64,000 nt of DNA from the NCBI RefSeq assembly GCF_023806465.1, contig NZ_JAMSLS010000003.1:310001-374000 (forward strand). The letters are read 5' to 3'. This DNA comes from Thermomicrobium sp. CFH 73360. Its GTDB lineage: Bacteria > Chloroflexota > Chloroflexia > Thermomicrobiales > Thermomicrobiaceae. A program made the translations under genes and the position numbers. Under the pieces are notes generated by a model. The model was not told the origin of the DNA. It worked only from the letters and a program-made list of their open reading frames with translations, and ran no database searches. Below, one piece after another: positions 38,281-45,728 of this stretch. Positions within the stretch are counted from its first letter, which is position 1; each line of letters starts with the position of its first letter.

Positions 38281-39450
38281 GTGGAACTTCGGGAATTACT
38301 CGCAGAACGCATGAGCAGGCTAGGGACAGAGAGCGCGTTTGAAGTGCTAGCCCGGGCTCGGGCACTCGAGGCCCAAGGGCGTTCGATCATCCATTTGGAG
38401 ATTGGAGAACCGGATTTCGACACGCCGCCGCACATCGTCGAGGCGGCGGTAGAGGCACTGCGGGCGGGGGACACGCACTATACGCCGGCGGCTGGGCTGC
38501 CGGAATTGCGCGCGGCGATTGCGGAGGAGGTGAGGAGGACGCGTGGGATCCCGGTCGATCCGGAGCAGGTGGTTGTGACCCCCGGCGGGAAACCGATTAT
38601 GTTCTTCACCATCCTTGCGCTGGCGGAAAGTGGTGCCGAGGTGATTTATCCAGATCCGGGATTTCCGATCTATGAGTCGGTCATTCGTTTTGCTGGTGCT
38701 ACACCGGTGCCACTTCCGCTGCGTGAGGAGTTCGGGTTCGCGTTTGATCCGGCGGAGCTCCGCCGCCTGGTAACGAAGCGGACGCGACTGGTGATCGTGA
38801 ACTCGCCGCATAATCCGACGGGAGCGGTGGTCGGTCGGGAGGCACTCGAGGAGCTAGCGCGCCTGGCGCAGGAATTCGACTTCATGGTGCTTTCCGATGA
38901 GATCTATCGGCGGATCGTTTACGAGGGTGAGGTACTGAGCATTGCCAGCCTACCGGGGATGGCGGAACGGACGGTGATCCTTGATGGGTTCTCAAAGACG
39001 TACGCGATGACTGGTTGGCGACTTGGGTATGGAGTCGCACCACGCTGGCTGGCTGAGCATCTGGTGCGGCTGGCGGTGAACTGCCACTCCTGCGTGCCGG
39101 GATTCACACAACGGGCTGGGCTCGCGGCACTCCGAGGGCCGCAGGAGCCGGTTGAGCGGATGGTCGCAGAATTCCGGCGGCGTCGGGACGCTGTGGTGGA
39201 GGGGCTAAACAGCCTTCCCGGCGTCCGCTGCATGTTGCCGGCCGGAGCGTTCTATGTCTTTCCCAACATCACTGGTACGGGGCGATCGGCGGAGACGTTG
39301 GCCCGGGAGTTCCTCGAGCAGGCAGGCGTTGCCGCGCTGGCGGGGACGGCGTTTGGGCGGTTCGGTGAGGGATATTTACGTCTCTCCTTTGCCAACTCGA
39401 TGGAGAACTTGCTTGAGGCGATTGAGCGGATGCGGCGGTATCTGCTGTAG
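38281..39450 (+). CDS. PLP-dependent aminotransferase class I (aspartate aminotransferase type)
   Basis: 389 residues from GTG at 38281, chosen because AGGAGG lies 6 bp upstream; the frame is open further back but without family similarity. Family segments: LEIGEPDFDTPPHI, DTHYTPAAGLPELR, a PDPGFPIYES substrate loop, NSPHNPTGAVV, LSDEIYRRIVYE, PLP lysine Lys239 in GFSKTYAMTGWRLGY, and the C-terminal YLRLSFANS with the carboxylate-binding Arg. It probably interconverts aspartate or related amino acids and 2-oxo acids; exact specificity is unclear. Confidence 0.94.
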   Translation: MELRELLAERMSRLGTESAFEVLARARALEAQGRSIIHLEIGEPDFDTPPHIVEAAVEALRAGDTHYTPAAGLPELRAAIAEEVRRTRGIPVDPEQVVVTPGGKPIMFFTILALAESGAEVIYPDPGFPIYESVIRFAGATPVPLPLREEFGFAFDPAELRRLVTKRTRLVIVNSPHNPTGAVVGREALEELARLAQEFDFMVLSDEIYRRIVYEGEVLSIASLPGMAERTVILDGFSKTYAMTGWRLGYGVAPRWLAEHLVRLAVNCHSCVPGFTQRAGLAALRGPQEPVERMVAEFRRRRDAVVEGLNSLPGVRCMLPAGAFYVFPNITGTGRSAETLAREFLEQAGVAALAGTAFGRFGEGYLRLSFANSMENLLEAIERMRRYLL

Positions 39451-40152
39451 TCGAACGGAAAATGGGTCCAGACCTCCACTCGCGATCTGACACATGGCGC
39501 GAGTCGGAGCAGTTGTCTGGTGTGGCGGTTCTGTTCGCAGTCTCTGGTGCAGTTCCGGGGTAACAGGAGTTCGTAGCGACTTTCTGGTCTTTGTTCCTTC
39601 CGAGTCGTCCGGGACGCTGCGCTGTCTCAGCGGGTGCATACGGGTGCTCAGTCCCTGCGGCAACCTGCTGCCATGCACCCCGGATCAGCAGCGGTAACGC
39701 TTTGGGTCCGGTCGAGGGGGCGAGTGCGGAGCACGAGTGGGTGATCCGGGTCAACTGTTTGGTTGCTAAGCTGGCGATGCTCGGGACCTCGCACGATTCC
39801 GGTTCGGACGTGTGATGGCGACCGGTCATCCACAAGAGGGTGTTCACAGTCAGGATCGTTGCGAAGGATCTTGGACAGGTGAGAGGTGGGAAGAGAGATC
39901 GCACTCTAGCCACCTCCCCGTGGTCGTTCCGATGCTTCCCCGCCGGTTCGGAACTTCCTGACCGTTCGTCACTGCTCACTTTTCCTGTGACACGGAGAAG
40001 GAATGCAGCCTGCGCTGCGTTCTGGAGTCGGAAGGCTCGACCGCCGGAGCGTTGGAGCGCAAGGTGAGGCACCTGTTGCGTTGGGGGGACGCGCCCGTGG
40101 GGGTGAGGGTGTTGCGTCACTCAGCCCAAGAGGTCTTGCGGCGGTGGGCAGC
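39451..40152 (+). other. Gene-free stretch upstream of the respiratory cluster
   Basis: A 283-codon minus-strand open frame (39269-40120) looks spurious: random composition, no ribosome site and overlap with the aminotransferase. Nothing else is supported. Confidence 0.45.
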
Positions 40153-40164
40153 TTGCACTATCAT

Positions 40165-40179
40165 TGTAGTAATACTACA
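40165..40179. promoter_or_regulatory. Perfect palindromic operator candidate before the respiratory cluster
   Basis: TGTAGTA-A-TACTACA: 7-bp perfect inverted repeat around one base, 67 bp before the subunit II ATG. A TTGCAC box lies at 40153-40158. The AT-rich palindrome stands out in GC-rich flanks, as a regulator site overlapping the promoter would. Confidence 0.5.
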
Positions 40180-40245
40180 GAGTATCAAAACGACATACTG
40201 TCAGGCGTTGTCTTGCGGGTACGCCGGGCGGCGGAAGGGGGTGTT

Positions 40246-40767
40246 ATGCAGGTCGGCGTCGGGGTTGTGTTTTTCATCTTTGTCGTCCTGTGGACAGGGG
40301 CATTGTGGTGGATTGCGACGCGAGCGGCGCTAACAGCTCCCTACGAGCGCGTCAGTGCAGTGGTCTCTCGGTTACGGCGATGGGGCGCGCTGATTGTGGT
40401 GGTCGTGCTTGGGGCGGCCTTCATTCTTTCGTTACCATTTCTGCCCTATCCGACGAGTCGAGCCGCGCGACTTGGATCCCCTCAGGTCACAGTTGAGGTG
40501 ACTGGACGGATGTGGGCCTGGGAGCTGAGTCAGAAGACGATTCCGCGAGGCCAGACCGTGGAGTTTGTCGTGAGGGCGCTTGATGTCAACCATGGGTTTG
40601 GCATCTACGCGCCAGATGGGCGAATTGTGACGCAGGTGCAGGCTATGCCGGGCTACACGAACCGACTTCTCTACCGGTTCGATGAACCAGGGACCTACAC
40701 GATTCGCTGCCTGGAGTTCTGTGCCACTGGTCATCATCTCATGGTGGCTGAGTTCACCGTGGAGTGA
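40246..40767 (+). CDS. CuA-containing haem-copper reductase subunit II
   Basis: 173 residues from ATG at 40246, with GGAAGGGGG upstream. Two N-terminal membrane helices (about 3-24 and 42-62), then a cupredoxin domain with the full CuA ligand set: His116 in NHGFGIY, then Cys155, Glu157, Cys159, His163 and Met166 in CLEFCATGHHLM. CuA accepts electrons from soluble cytochromes or cupredoxins. The protein is short, like subunit II of ba3-type and other B-like reductases. Its stop overlaps the GTG of subunit I. Confidence 0.93.
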   Translation: MQVGVGVVFFIFVVLWTGALWWIATRAALTAPYERVSAVVSRLRRWGALIVVVVLGAAFILSLPFLPYPTSRAARLGSPQVTVEVTGRMWAWELSQKTIPRGQTVEFVVRALDVNHGFGIYAPDGRIVTQVQAMPGYTNRLLYRFDEPGTYTIRCLEFCATGHHLMVAEFTVE

Positions 40768-42269
40768 AAGGTGCGAGGGAGGCCATGGCAGGACGAGTTG
40801 GCAACGGGAACAGTGCCCGAGCGCAGCAGTCGGTCGAGCAGGCTACGCTGGTGTACATGCTGGTCGGTTTCGCCGTGTTTCTCCTCATGGGCGTCCTGGG
40901 GCTCCTGATGCGCTTGCAGCACGCTGGCTGGATCGATCTTGGGCCGCGTTGGTTTTACCGCATCATGACGCTGCATGGATCGGGGATGGTTGCCGGTGTC
41001 CTGTTGGCATCACTCGGGGGAGTGGCGCGGGTCATCGCGCCGCGCATTGGGTTAAGTCCGCGGCTCCTCTGGACCGCCTTTGTCGTCTACTTTCTTGGCT
41101 CGGGGCTGGTCATTTTGGCAACACTGGTGGGTGGCTTCGCCGCGGGATGGACAACAACCTACCCCTTGCCCGTGCGTGGCGACTGGCCAATGAGTGCGAC
41201 CTGGGGGTTTCTCCTCGGTTACACACTTGTCGCCGTGGCCTTTTTGCTGTGGTGTCTGGCCGTGCTGGTCGGGGCATTGAGGACCTTTGGTGGTTTCGGG
41301 AACACACTTGCCTGGCCGGTGCTGTTTGGTCGCAAGACAGAGCGTCCGGTCCCGACTGGTCCGGAGCTCGCCGCCACAGTGGTGGCGATCGATGGGATCA
41401 TTGCGGTTGGGGCGGGTGTGGTGTATCTGGTACCGATTTTCGCGGAAATGCTGGGGTTGGTCAGCGGCTTTGATGTCCTTTTTGCGAAAAACATGTTGTT
41501 CCTGTTTGGGCATACGCTGGTGAACCTGAACATCTACCTCGCTGTCGCCCTTGTCTATGCCACACTAGGCGCCTATACCGGACGGACGTTCAAAATGGGC
41601 TTTCCCGTAGCCCTGGCCTTTAATTTGGTTATCATTCTTGTGCTCTTGCCCTATTTCCACCACCTGTATCAGGACTTTGTGCAGCCTTGGCCGCTGCACC
41701 TCATTGGACAGTTTGGTTCCTATGCGGTGGGAGTTCCGGCCTTCTTTGTGACCATTATTGGAAGCCTTGGTCTTCTGTACGGGTCACGGGTGCGATGGTC
41801 TGCGCCGGTCATCTTCATTCTCGCTGGGCTGTGGGGTTGGGTTGTCGGGGGCTTTGCCGCGATACTTGACGGAACGATTGCGATCAACAACGTCATGCAT
41901 AACACGCTTTGGGTGCCAGCGCACTTTCACTCTTATTATCTCTTTGGTGCTGCTGGTTTTACCTGGGCCTATCTGTTCCACACGCTGGGAGGCGTTGAGG
42001 GTTGGGTGACAAGCCCGGCGGCGCGTTGGCTCGGATGGCTGTACGCAATTGGCGCCGGAGGATTCGTCCTCGCATTCTTCTTGTCCGGACTGCAGAGTGT
42101 ACCGCGCCGATACGCTGAGCACATTGCTGCCTGGCAAGTGCTCGGGCAGGTGGCAGTGCCATTTGTGCTCCTGCTGGGTATCGCCTTCCTTGGTCTCCTC
42201 ATCCTTGGGCTCCGTGCCGTACCGGCTGCGTGGCGAGCCCCTGCTCCGGCACCCGGATCGAATGATTAG
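40764..42269 (+). CDS. Haem-copper reductase catalytic subunit I (atypical; lacks the cross-linked Tyr)
   Basis: 501 residues, about 12 or more membrane helices. Start GTG at 40764 overlaps the previous stop; ATG at 40785 with GAGGG upstream is equally possible. The six metal-binding histidines are present: His71 (LHGSGM), His250, the His299-His300 pair, His387 and His389 (AHFHSYY). In A- and B-family oxygen reductases His250 is followed four residues on by the Tyr that cross-links to it; here that position is Asn254 (HTLVN), and the next Tyr is at 258. So it may be a NO reductase-type or divergent oxygen reductase. With subunit II it forms the terminal reductase. Confidence 0.9.
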   Translation: MKGAREAMAGRVGNGNSARAQQSVEQATLVYMLVGFAVFLLMGVLGLLMRLQHAGWIDLGPRWFYRIMTLHGSGMVAGVLLASLGGVARVIAPRIGLSPRLLWTAFVVYFLGSGLVILATLVGGFAAGWTTTYPLPVRGDWPMSATWGFLLGYTLVAVAFLLWCLAVLVGALRTFGGFGNTLAWPVLFGRKTERPVPTGPELAATVVAIDGIIAVGAGVVYLVPIFAEMLGLVSGFDVLFAKNMLFLFGHTLVNLNIYLAVALVYATLGAYTGRTFKMGFPVALAFNLVIILVLLPYFHHLYQDFVQPWPLHLIGQFGSYAVGVPAFFVTIIGSLGLLYGSRVRWSAPVIFILAGLWGWVVGGFAAILDGTIAINNVMHNTLWVPAHFHSYYLFGAAGFTWAYLFHTLGGVEGWVTSPAARWLGWLYAIGAGGFVLAFFLSGLQSVPRRYAEHIAAWQVLGQVAVPFVLLLGIAFLGLLILGLRAVPAAWRAPAPAPGSND

Positions 42270-42622
42270 CATGTGAAGTCAGGTCGGCGTCGTGGGGTTG
42301 CAACACGAGCGGTCGAGTTCTGATCGTGAAGGTGGTTCGACGCAGCGTCTCAGCTCACCGTCTCTTCCGATGATCTTCCAACGTTGGGGACGATCGGGTG
42401 AACGGGAAGGACAACGCACGGCGTTCCGGAGGGTATCGTTCCCGTACCGGTAAACGATCGTATGACATGGACAGTGTTGCTCAGCTCGATTGTCTGGTGG
42501 CCGGGTGGGGGTCAGGATTTGTATGTCAGCCGGGTTGTCTCTCACCAGAACCTGCAACTGATTGCGCAGATGACGCTTGCGGAACGCTTCCAGAGGGCTG
42601 TTCGTTGAACTGAGGGGTGCTG
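42270..42622 (+). other. Gap between subunit I and the FNT gene
   Basis: 353 bp without a supported gene. It could hold a separate promoter for the FNT gene, but no convincing -35/-10 pair is seen. Confidence 0.4.
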
Positions 42623-43459
42623 ATGCGAGACCAGAGTGCTTTGCGATTCGAAGCAGCGGCCGCGGAAAAGATCGGGGATGCGGTTAGTCCAGTTGAACTT
42701 GTGGCAGCGGCAGTTGAAGCGAGTGAGCGGAAGGCGAGACTTGCTGTTGTTCCGATGATCCTCCGCGGAGCGCTCAGCGGTGCGTTGCTGGGCGCAGCGA
42801 CCCTCCTTGCTGTGACGGCCTGGGCACAGGGGTTGCCGCGGCTGGTCGGTGCACTGGTCTTCCCGGTTGGTTTTTGTATGCTGGTCCTCTTGGGTCTGGA
42901 GCTGGCCACCGGAAATTTTGCGCTGCTTCCTGCTGGCTGGTATGCCGGACGCGTCAGTCTTGGGGCAGTCGCGCGGAACTGGTGGTGGGTCTATGGTGGA
43001 AATCTCCTCGGCGGTATCGGTTTTGCAGTCCTGGCGGTGGCTTCTCTGACCGGGTGGTGGAGCCATGATGCTGGTGCGGTTGGGGAGCAGCTGCGGCAAG
43101 TGGCCGTGAGCAAGACCATAGCTTACGCCGAGGAAGGATGGCGCGGCTGGATGACGGTACTGACGAAAGCGGTGCTCGCCAACTGGCTGGTTACGGTGGG
43201 AACGATGCTCAGCTATAGCTCACGGTCCACCGTGGGCAAAGTTGTTGTCATGTGGCTGCCCATACTGACCTTCTTTGGACTTGCCTACGAACATTCCATT
43301 GTGAATATGTTTGTTATTCCTGCTGGCATACTTGCTGGAGCACCGATTGGTTTCAGTGCCTGGTGGCTTTGGAATCAGGTACCGGCGACTCTGGGAAATA
43401 TTGTGGGGGGAGCTCTCCTGACCGGCCTTGCTCTTACGTGGTCATTTGGACGGCGGTGA
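42623..43459 (+). CDS. FNT-family formate/nitrite channel
   Basis: 278 residues from ATG at 42623, with GAGGGG 5 bp upstream. Six hydrophobic helices. FNT signatures: GLELATGNFALLP in the second helix region and GKVVVMWLPILTFFGLAYEHSIVNMF, which contains the central-pore His of EHS(I/V)(A/V)NM. Typical FNT members (FocA, NirC) conduct formate, nitrite or hydrosulfide as pentamers. Its place between reductase subunit I and CtaG suggests nitrite or another small anion linked to respiration; the substrate is inferred only. Confidence 0.88.
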   Translation: MRDQSALRFEAAAAEKIGDAVSPVELVAAAVEASERKARLAVVPMILRGALSGALLGAATLLAVTAWAQGLPRLVGALVFPVGFCMLVLLGLELATGNFALLPAGWYAGRVSLGAVARNWWWVYGGNLLGGIGFAVLAVASLTGWWSHDAGAVGEQLRQVAVSKTIAYAEEGWRGWMTVLTKAVLANWLVTVGTMLSYSSRSTVGKVVVMWLPILTFFGLAYEHSIVNMFVIPAGILAGAPIGFSAWWLWNQVPATLGNIVGGALLTGLALTWSFGRR

Positions 43460-43502
43460 AGAACGTTGTTTCTGCCATGGCGACTCAGGGTGAGGTGGTC
43501 GT

Positions 43503-44363
43503 GTGGCAGAGCCGTTGATCTGGCTTCCAGTTGGGGCGTGGTTTGATCCAGGGTATTGGACCTGGCGTCTTCCGGTTTTGTTCGTCCTTGGTGGGATGCT
43601 ACTTTCCTACAGTATTGGAGTGAGCAAGCTTTTCTTGAAACGCAGGAGCGGTTGGCTTGTACGCCGGACGATCTGGTGGTTGCTGGGCTTTGCGCTTCTC
43701 CTGCTGGCACTTCTCTCTCCACTCGATGAGCTTGGTGGGCTCTTCTTCTCCTGGCACATGGTGCAGCATCTCGCGTTGCTCTATGCAGCGCCATTGCTCT
43801 TGGCGGGCTGGCCGCTGACGGTGGCCGTGTGGTCGTTGCCGAGGAGTGGTCGGCAATTGATGCGGCGGCTGCTGCGCAGAGGGGGTGTTGGCGCTCAGCT
43901 CTTGAATCAGGCGACGCGGCCGTCGGTTGCGCTTGTGGCGGGGATTGTCACGTTGTGGTTGTGGCATTACCCGCCACTGTATGACGCGGTGCTTACCCGG
44001 CGCTGGCTGCATGATCTTGAGCACGTCACCTTCTTCCTTGGAGCGCTTCTGTACTGGTGGCCGATTGTCGAGGCGCCGCCGGTGCGACGGCGCTTTCGCA
44101 GTGATGCGGGGCGAGCATTCTACCTCATCCTTGGTGGGACCCAGGCCGGGATTCTCGGGGCATTGGTAACGTTTTGGCCAGACGTTCTCTATCACCGCTA
44201 TCTCTTGCACATCACGGAGCATAGTCGCTTGATGGCTGACCAGGTCTTCGGCGGGTTAGTGATGTGGCTCAGTGGGCCGCTGGTGGTCGGCATACTGGCA
44301 CTGGCGACCCTGGGACGAGAAGCGCAGCAGGTTGCCGAAACGCGCGTAGTCGCACCACACTGA
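43503..44363 (+). CDS. CtaG/Caa3-type cytochrome oxidase assembly factor
   Basis: 286 residues from GTG at 43503. About seven membrane helices. The family motif LLSPLDELGGLFFSWHMVQHLALLYAAPLLLAG, with HMVQH and further histidines in LWHYPPLYDAVL and LHITEHSRLMADQ, matches the Caa3_CtaG family, thought to help deliver copper to haem-copper oxidases. It follows the FNT gene by 43 bp and belongs to the same cluster, supporting that the CuA reductase is assembled. Confidence 0.9.
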   Translation: MAEPLIWLPVGAWFDPGYWTWRLPVLFVLGGMLLSYSIGVSKLFLKRRSGWLVRRTIWWLLGFALLLLALLSPLDELGGLFFSWHMVQHLALLYAAPLLLAGWPLTVAVWSLPRSGRQLMRRLLRRGGVGAQLLNQATRPSVALVAGIVTLWLWHYPPLYDAVLTRRWLHDLEHVTFFLGALLYWWPIVEAPPVRRRFRSDAGRAFYLILGGTQAGILGALVTFWPDVLYHRYLLHITEHSRLMADQVFGGLVMWLSGPLVVGILALATLGREAQQVAETRVVAPH

Positions 44364-44405
44364 GAAGCTACGGTATGACGCACGACGGGTGCGCGAAGGA
44401 GGAGT

Positions 44406-45728
44406 GTGGTGAGTGAGCAGACGAGTACAGATCGGGTGCTGGTTCTTGGGGGAGGAATTGCAGGGCTTGCTGCCGCGTGGCGACTGCAGCAAGCGGGCGT
44501 AGAGATAGAACTGCTGGAAGCACGCGACCGGGTTGGTGGGCGACTGTGGACGAGCTTTGAGTATGGTCCGTTTCCGGTGGAACTGGGGGCTGAGTTCATC
44601 CACGGGGACCGGGTGATTACCTGGCAGTTCCTTGAGCGCTACGGGCTTCGCGCGCTTGACGACCCGAGCCAAGACCGACGGTACGTGGGGATCAATGGTC
44701 GTGTGATGCCCTCCGTGGACCTCTCGCGCCCGGTTGGGGAGGGGATCTTCGCACCACTCGGTCAGGCTGCGGAGGCATGGTACGCGACCGGGCGACCTGA
44801 CACGAACCTCGCCGCGGCACTCCGCTGGTGGGCTGATCAGGTGGGTATGTCACTCACACCGGAACTCTGGGAGCTTTGGCAGACGTTGGCGGCGATTGGG
44901 TGGTCAGCCGATCTGGAGGAGATCGGGGTTTACGGAGAGGTCGAGGCGACCTACGAAGGTGACGGGTTGCGGAACTGGCGAATTGCCGACGGGCAGCAGA
45001 CACTTGCGGAGCGGATCGCAGCGGAACTCGGTGCAGCTGTCCGACTCAACTGTGTTGTGGAGCGAGTGGAGTGGAACCGGAGCGGAGTGCGGGTCATCGC
45101 GTCGGACGGCGAACACCACGGGCGGTGGGCGGTCGTCGCGCTCCCCCTCGGCGTGCTGCGGGGAGGTATGGTGAAGTTTGTCCCGGCACTGCCCGAGCAT
45201 CTGCGTGAGGCGCTGGATGGGCTCAACCCTGGGGTGTCCATCAAGGTGGTCGTGGAGTTATCCAATGATCCGTGGGGTTCGAGGATCGGTTGTCTCTTCG
45301 TCACTGAGCCGCATGGAATCTGGGAGCGTCCGGGGCTTGCTTTGGGGAGACAAGAGCCGGTCTTCAGCCTGCTCATCGGTGGAAGCGAGGCGCGACGGCT
45401 TGCTGCGCTGCCCCGGGATTTGGCGATTCGGGAGGTGACTCGCTCCCTGGGCAATGTCCTTGGGATTGATGTGAGCGGCTGGGTGCGACGGGGTGTGGTG
45501 GTCGACTGGATAAACGATCCCTGGTGCCGAGGTGGGTACTCGCTAGTTCCACCGGGTGGGGCGGGGTTACGAGCGCGCTTTGGTTCTGTCGTGGACGGGT
45601 GCCTCGTCTTTGCTGGTGAGTACACGAGTGTCATACGTCCGTCAACGGTGCACGGGGCGATCGAGAGTGGGCTGCGTGCTGCGGAGGCGATCTTATCCCT
45701 CCAGGCGAAAGCCGCGGTGAGTCCCTGA
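44406..45728 (+). CDS. Flavin-containing amine oxidase family protein
   Basis: 440 residues from GTG at 44406 (GGAGGAG upstream). FAD-binding Rossmann motif VLVLGGGIAGLAAAWRLQQAGVEIELLEARDRVGGRLWT, then FPVELGAEFIHG, central substrate domain and the C-terminal FAD contact GCLVFAGEYTSVIRPSTVHGAIESGLRAAE. This is the monoamine/polyamine oxidase fold; the substrate could be a polyamine, an amino acid or a non-amine. Last gene of the respiratory run, 42 bp after CtaG. Confidence 0.92.
   Translation: MVSEQTSTDRVLVLGGGIAGLAAAWRLQQAGVEIELLEARDRVGGRLWTSFEYGPFPVELGAEFIHGDRVITWQFLERYGLRALDDPSQDRRYVGINGRVMPSVDLSRPVGEGIFAPLGQAAEAWYATGRPDTNLAAALRWWADQVGMSLTPELWELWQTLAAIGWSADLEEIGVYGEVEATYEGDGLRNWRIADGQQTLAERIAAELGAAVRLNCVVERVEWNRSGVRVIASDGEHHGRWAVVALPLGVLRGGMVKFVPALPEHLREALDGLNPGVSIKVVVELSNDPWGSRIGCLFVTEPHGIWERPGLALGRQEPVFSLLIGGSEARRLAALPRDLAIREVTRSLGNVLGIDVSGWVRRGVVVDWINDPWCRGGYSLVPPGGAGLRARFGSVVDGCLVFAGEYTSVIRPSTVHGAIESGLRAAEAILSLQAKAAVSP

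Follow-up and report, generated by a model that had tools for sequence, protein, structure and literature searches.

A predicted sNOR-type haem-copper nitric oxide reductase encoded together with an FNT channel in Thermomicrobium

Introduction

What does a CuA-bearing haem-copper enzyme reduce, NO or O2, when its cross-linked active-site tyrosine is missing? The question is raised by four genes in a window of 64,000 nucleotides from Thermomicrobium sp. CFH 73360, situated within a 441-kb contig of the 3.06-Mb assembly. A sequence-only reading had proposed that the enzyme might reduce NO or might use another tyrosine (258 or 297), and that an FNT channel gene between subunit I and CtaG would fit nitrite/NO chemistry.

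The sNOR family, known from Silicibacter, Deinococcus, Geobacillus and betaproteobacteria, has Asn as its active-site residue (PMC8756737, Table A4), while gNOR has Asp (PMC8756737). In Bacillus azotoformans, the CuA-NOR of type II likewise has Asn; its subunit I is short, with 12 helices, and its CuA subunit II has two. The same paper places the sNOR of Nitrosomonas with type I (PMC3475470), and later work splits bNOR from sNOR (PMC11388526). The literature disagrees on the substrate of sNOR, NO or O2. NO reduction by any sNOR is backed by indirect evidence only, from Nitrococcus, and the sNOR genes of Nitrosomonas europaea are upregulated 2.7–10.8-fold under O2 limitation, from which the authors propose a high-affinity terminal oxidase (PMC6967387).

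Results and Discussion

All four genes are found where the earlier reading had placed them and are real, each with a Pfam match and under purifying selection. Subunit II (norS-like; 40246..40767, + strand) is a CuA cupredoxin with two N-terminal transmembrane helices (COX2, 9.1e-6; aligned with the ba3 CuA domain and sNOR relatives), and it is followed by subunit I (norY-like, sNOR type, 494 aa; 40785..42269, +; COX1, 1.7e-41; also identified by alignments and its clade). Next come an FNT-family small-anion channel (42623..43459, +; Form_Nir_trans, 1.8e-62) and a CtaG-family assembly factor, probably for CuB insertion (43503..44363, +; Caa3_CtaG, 5.3e-53). Against other Thermomicrobium, dN/dS is 0.02–0.20 over the four genes and 0.02–0.06 for subunit I, values that are rough with dS near saturation. 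Subunit I can start at GTG 40764 (501 aa) or ATG 40785 (494 aa; H243/N247); conservation and a ribosome-binding site make the ATG the more likely true start. Residue numbers given here are those of the 501-aa version unless stated.

Just 5' of subunit II, at the probable operon promoter, we found a perfect 15-bp palindrome, TGTAGTAATACTACA (40165..40179, no strand assigned), as a candidate operator. It has one match in the window, where 0.01 would be expected even allowing two mismatches. A conserved operator it is not, since relatives show just half-site-like GTAGTA or GTCGT strings past the -10. The Rfam search of 39400–44500 gave zero matches. On the 3' side of CtaG, the Thermomicrobium loci checked carry a flavin amine oxidase-like gene (window 44406–45728), which is also present where sNOR is lost and probably has no tie to the operon.

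All six haem/CuB histidines of subunit I, H71, H250, H299, H300, H387 and H389, are indeed in place and align with ba3 H72, H233, H282, H283, H384 and H386. The loss of the cross-linked tyrosine was also read correctly: the residue four after His250 (H+4) is Asn254, exact in the 501-aa numbering, and it aligns with ba3 Y237. The DNA and its translation give HTLVNLNIY for the stretch from the CuB ligand His250 through N254 to Y258 (41511..41537, +). Asn254 is no error, because Asn is invariant at H+4 in all 11 members of a clade with 100/100 support, down to 33% identity and in motifs as different as GHTLVN, GHSIAN, GHTLAN and GHVFIN. Elsewhere in the alignment, this position is Tyr in every A- and ba3-type row and Gln in the five eNOR-like rows. 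Subunit I has 12 helices; subunit II has two hydrophobic N-terminal ones and a complete CuA ligand set (H, C149, C153, H157, M160), which is invariant in the alignment. Among the ba3 K-channel residues, Y237 is replaced by N, Y244 by V or A and S309 by A, V, P or L, while T312 and Y248 are retained.

Of the two tyrosines suggested as substitutes, Tyr297 varies among the clade members and was dropped, whereas Tyr258 (H+8) is present in each of the 11; at H+8 the A, ba3 and eNOR-like rows without exception have a hydrophobic residue. On an ideal helix Tyr258 lies one turn past Asn254 and on the same face as Tyr265 (ba3 Y248), so that a role as proton relay appears likelier than a cross-link. The predicted structure of subunit I, made from three sequences, has a mean pLDDT of 48, too poor for active-site geometry.

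The same genes, at 85% identity, are located on the megaplasmid of T. roseum DSM 5159, and further relatives at 92% and 84% occur in Thermomicrobium MAGs. Beyond T. roseum, tblastn against public plasmids gave Ruegeria pomeroyi DSS-3 (4e-61) and Parasedimentitalea marina, both at about 35%, followed by a steep fall to ordinary oxidases at 23–27%; the Ruegeria protein as query returned the same three plasmid matches only. In P. marina, subunit I (L029:6908-8310) is unannotated and matches in two pieces, possibly through a frameshift. A search of 400 Chloroflexota genomes yielded relatives at 36–59% from five that lie outside the genus, with a sharp gap before the next matches at ≤32%.

In a maximum-likelihood tree of 34 haem-copper enzymes, drawn without Nitrosomonas, Bacillus sNOR, bNOR, nNOR or gNOR sequences, the 11-member Asn clade includes the R. 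pomeroyi enzyme (100/100) and sits on a long branch. Clear clustering with oxygen reductases, together with a Tyr modelled within bonding distance of a CuB His, had been named as the outcome that would speak against NO reduction; a topology that joins the clade to the Tyr-bearing ba3 enzymes only was rejected (p 0.0006). Deeper down, a possible link of the clade to the B family plus eNOR has a support of 67/30, and AU tests did not discriminate between a position nearer the B and one nearer the A family. Ruegeria pomeroyi is the former Silicibacter pomeroyi. We infer that its megaplasmid gene is the sNOR meant in PMC8756737.

Asn at H+4, the clade shared with a named sNOR holder and the type II anatomy lead us to file the enzyme as sNOR, with the Bacillus and Nitrosomonas proteins compared through their published descriptions. 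A B-family (ba3) oxygen reductase is rejected by the Asn in place of the cross-linked Tyr and by the tree test, and eNOR by its required Gln at H+4. With an active-site Glu and a haem c or fused subunit, cNOR and qNOR do not fit an enzyme with Asn and a CuA subunit, and neither appeared among the solved relatives of subunit I at 1e-3. By its description, bNOR (CuA-NOR type I) has a subunit I of about 560 aa with 13 helices and a one-helix subunit II, against 494 aa, 12 helices and two helices here. That the enzyme is nevertheless a member of a different CuA-type group (bNOR/CuA-NOR type I or nNOR) is improbable in our view: bNOR also has Asn at H+4 (PMC3475470), bNOR and nNOR sequences are absent from the tree and the name sNOR is used differently between papers, but length, helix numbers and the clade with the Ruegeria enzyme point to type II. 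Overall, we consider it likely that the genes encode an sNOR-type, CuA-containing haem-copper NO reductase with its assembly factor CtaG.

The closest named system compared is the sNOR of R. pomeroyi DSS-3 (megaplasmid, SPO_RS20760-20740), with 33–35% identity over nearly the whole of subunit I. Both have Asn at H+4, Tyr at H+8, a CuA subunit II and an FNT gene in the cluster. Unlike Thermomicrobium, Ruegeria adds SCO, a small membrane protein, an NsrR-like gene and a cytochrome c. The FNT there belongs to the NirC type, and CtaG is missing from the stretch; the idea that the 189-aa small membrane protein is a shortened CtaG was dropped (profile comparison probability 4%). By description, the CuA-NOR type II of Bacillus azotoformans/Geobacillus (BAZO_04705-04710) shares Asn, the 12-helix subunit I and the two-helix CuA subunit II (PMC3475470); its locus differs in the linked SenC/SCO and 4–5 helix protein, with FNT and CtaG not described. 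The norSY-senC-orf1 genes of Nitrosomonas, named as the same family, are described with a CuA subunit and a haem-copper subunit I (PMC6967387, PMC4940428), but their operon as described lacks FNT and their function is disputed. Thermus ba3 oxidase (PDB 4gp8/1ehk; 23% identity) shares the fold, the six His, CuA and part of the K-channel (T312, Y248), but has the cross-linked Tyr237, Y244 and S309, all missing here.

The placement of FNT between subunit I and CtaG is found in five Thermomicrobium genomes. Linkage of FNT to sNOR extends to G014, Ruegeria and Parasedimentitalea, but not to the other Chloroflexota loci, two of which (G148 and G066) have CtaG directly 3' of subunit I. Among solved relatives, the Thermomicrobium FNT matches LCIA (3.9e-27) and FocA (9e-22) and NirC at just 2e-5; with 39.5 bits against a NirC cut-off of 293 it is not NirC and stands on the FocA/LCIA side of the family. 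The Ruegeria FNT is of the NirC type (264 bits; 51% to Aeromonas NirC), and an NsrR-like gene adjoins the NirC-type FNT/sNOR loci of Ruegeria and Parasedimentitalea. One FNT relative, in Paracoccus yeei (43%), is flanked by nirD and a nitrate reductase gene, and another, in Geobacillus (50%), adjoins cyanase. The linkage of two FNT lineages to sNOR, in a small number of cases, hints at a genuine connection in function, for which nitrite or another small anion would be the simplest basis; a limited literature look found no description of such a link. As a sign of nitrite/NO chemistry, FNT keeps part of its weight, since the link recurs in other sNOR loci, whereas the argument for nitrite reduction is weaker because no nitrite reductase of the searched families was detected in the genome.

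The genome encodes four haem-copper enzymes: separate Tyr-bearing A-type and ba3-like oxidases for O2, an eNOR-like enzyme with Gln (GHGAQQ) and the sNOR-type enzyme with Asn. The Gln-type locus (L085:6301-8631; G000:C34:104300-106630) comprises a haem-copper subunit I whose H+4 residue is Gln (L003), a CuA subunit and, downstream, a 617-aa haem-synthesis-like protein; carrying the eNOR marker, it is a probable second NO reductase. The same Q-type subunit I is also present in G014 and G019, and in the Chloroflexota genome G148 (L048:1722-6668) an eNOR-like pair is the direct, back-to-back neighbour of an sNOR pair. A Sec-dependent (clade II) NosZ is above cut-off in 6 of 7 genus members and here shares the contig with sNOR. 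NarG, NirK, NirS and NIR_SIR were not detected in this genome. Across the genus members searched, NirK is above cut-off only in G014 and NarG only in G014 and G019, while NirS and NIR_SIR reach it in none. With no NO-forming nitrite reductase detected, NO would come from outside or from a source of unsearched type. The presence of NosZ and the eNOR-like enzyme, together with the undetected NarG, NirK, NirS and NIR_SIR, makes NO → N2O → N2 a coherent reading, and the species probably consumes NO and N2O produced elsewhere. In G014, a genome with both NirK and NarG, only a broken remnant of the sNOR subunits is left at the corresponding site (L054:8100-8610, G014:C2). The CtaG gene there is spread over different frames, but FNT remains intact and G014 retains the eNOR-like enzyme.

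Could the enzyme instead be mainly a high-affinity O2 reductase, with NO reduction as a side reaction? Another tyrosine, most likely Tyr258, would then replace the cross-linked one as the relocated Tyr does in cbb3. Tyr258, strictly conserved in this clade alone, could in principle serve O2 chemistry, the proposed terminal oxidase role of the O2-limitation-induced N. europaea genes (PMC6967387) points the same way, and CtaG suggests CuB, as in oxidases. However, the H+8 C-alpha of an ideal helix lies about 12 Å from that of the His, so that a His–Tyr bond like the one at H+4 would be unlikely, and the shared face with Tyr265 would leave proton relay as a sufficient role. O2 is moreover already covered by the A- and ba3-type oxidases, and sNOR relatives adjoin NsrR-like genes and an eNOR-like enzyme. 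We therefore regard this explanation as unlikely. We give even less credence to a dual NO/O2 reductase with an essential, relocated H+8 Tyr, in which FNT would expel nitrite from microoxic NO oxidation at CuB and the two FNT lineages would have been recruited independently. An inactive or decaying oxidase, with Asn as loss of function, would be in keeping with the remnant in G014, but it is hardly credible next to the low dN/dS of subunit I, the intact metal ligands and a clade that spans phyla.

The evidence leans to NO over O2 as substrate, as the sequence-only reading had suspected: the sNOR clade, the Asn marker, the type II anatomy, NosZ and the eNOR-like enzyme in the genome and the NsrR-like gene beside relatives all support NO reduction, at the level of sequence comparison. 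We infer the reaction, the electron path, the metal at CuB and the role of FNT as follows. A soluble or membrane-bound carrier, cytochrome c or cupredoxin, would feed electrons to CuA in subunit II. The low-spin haem (H71/H389) would receive them next and hand them over to the high-spin haem (H387) and CuB (H250, H299, H300). At this haem/CuB site, 2 NO would be converted into N2O and water. The change from Tyr to Asn254 would take away an electron and proton donor that is required for O–O cleavage and dispensable for NO reduction. Proton pumping is probably absent, because much of the ba3-type K-channel is gone, and substrate protons may travel via the invariant Tyr258, Tyr265 and Thr330. The N2O formed would then be taken up by the clade-II NosZ that this genome encodes, and FNT would offer a membrane passage for nitrite or another small monovalent anion.

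Conclusion

In summary, Thermomicrobium adds a probable member to the known but disputed sNOR family, along with a Tyr at H+8 that is invariant in its clade and a recurring link to FNT. A gene that databases label as cytochrome c oxidase (cbb3-type in T. roseum) moves to the probably NO-reducing side, and together with NosZ, Thermomicrobium would gain a route from NO via N2O to N2. The H+8 Tyr and the repeated FNT link bear on the choice between NO and O2 as testable features, and proteins from a thermophile offer material for settling this question in sNOR.
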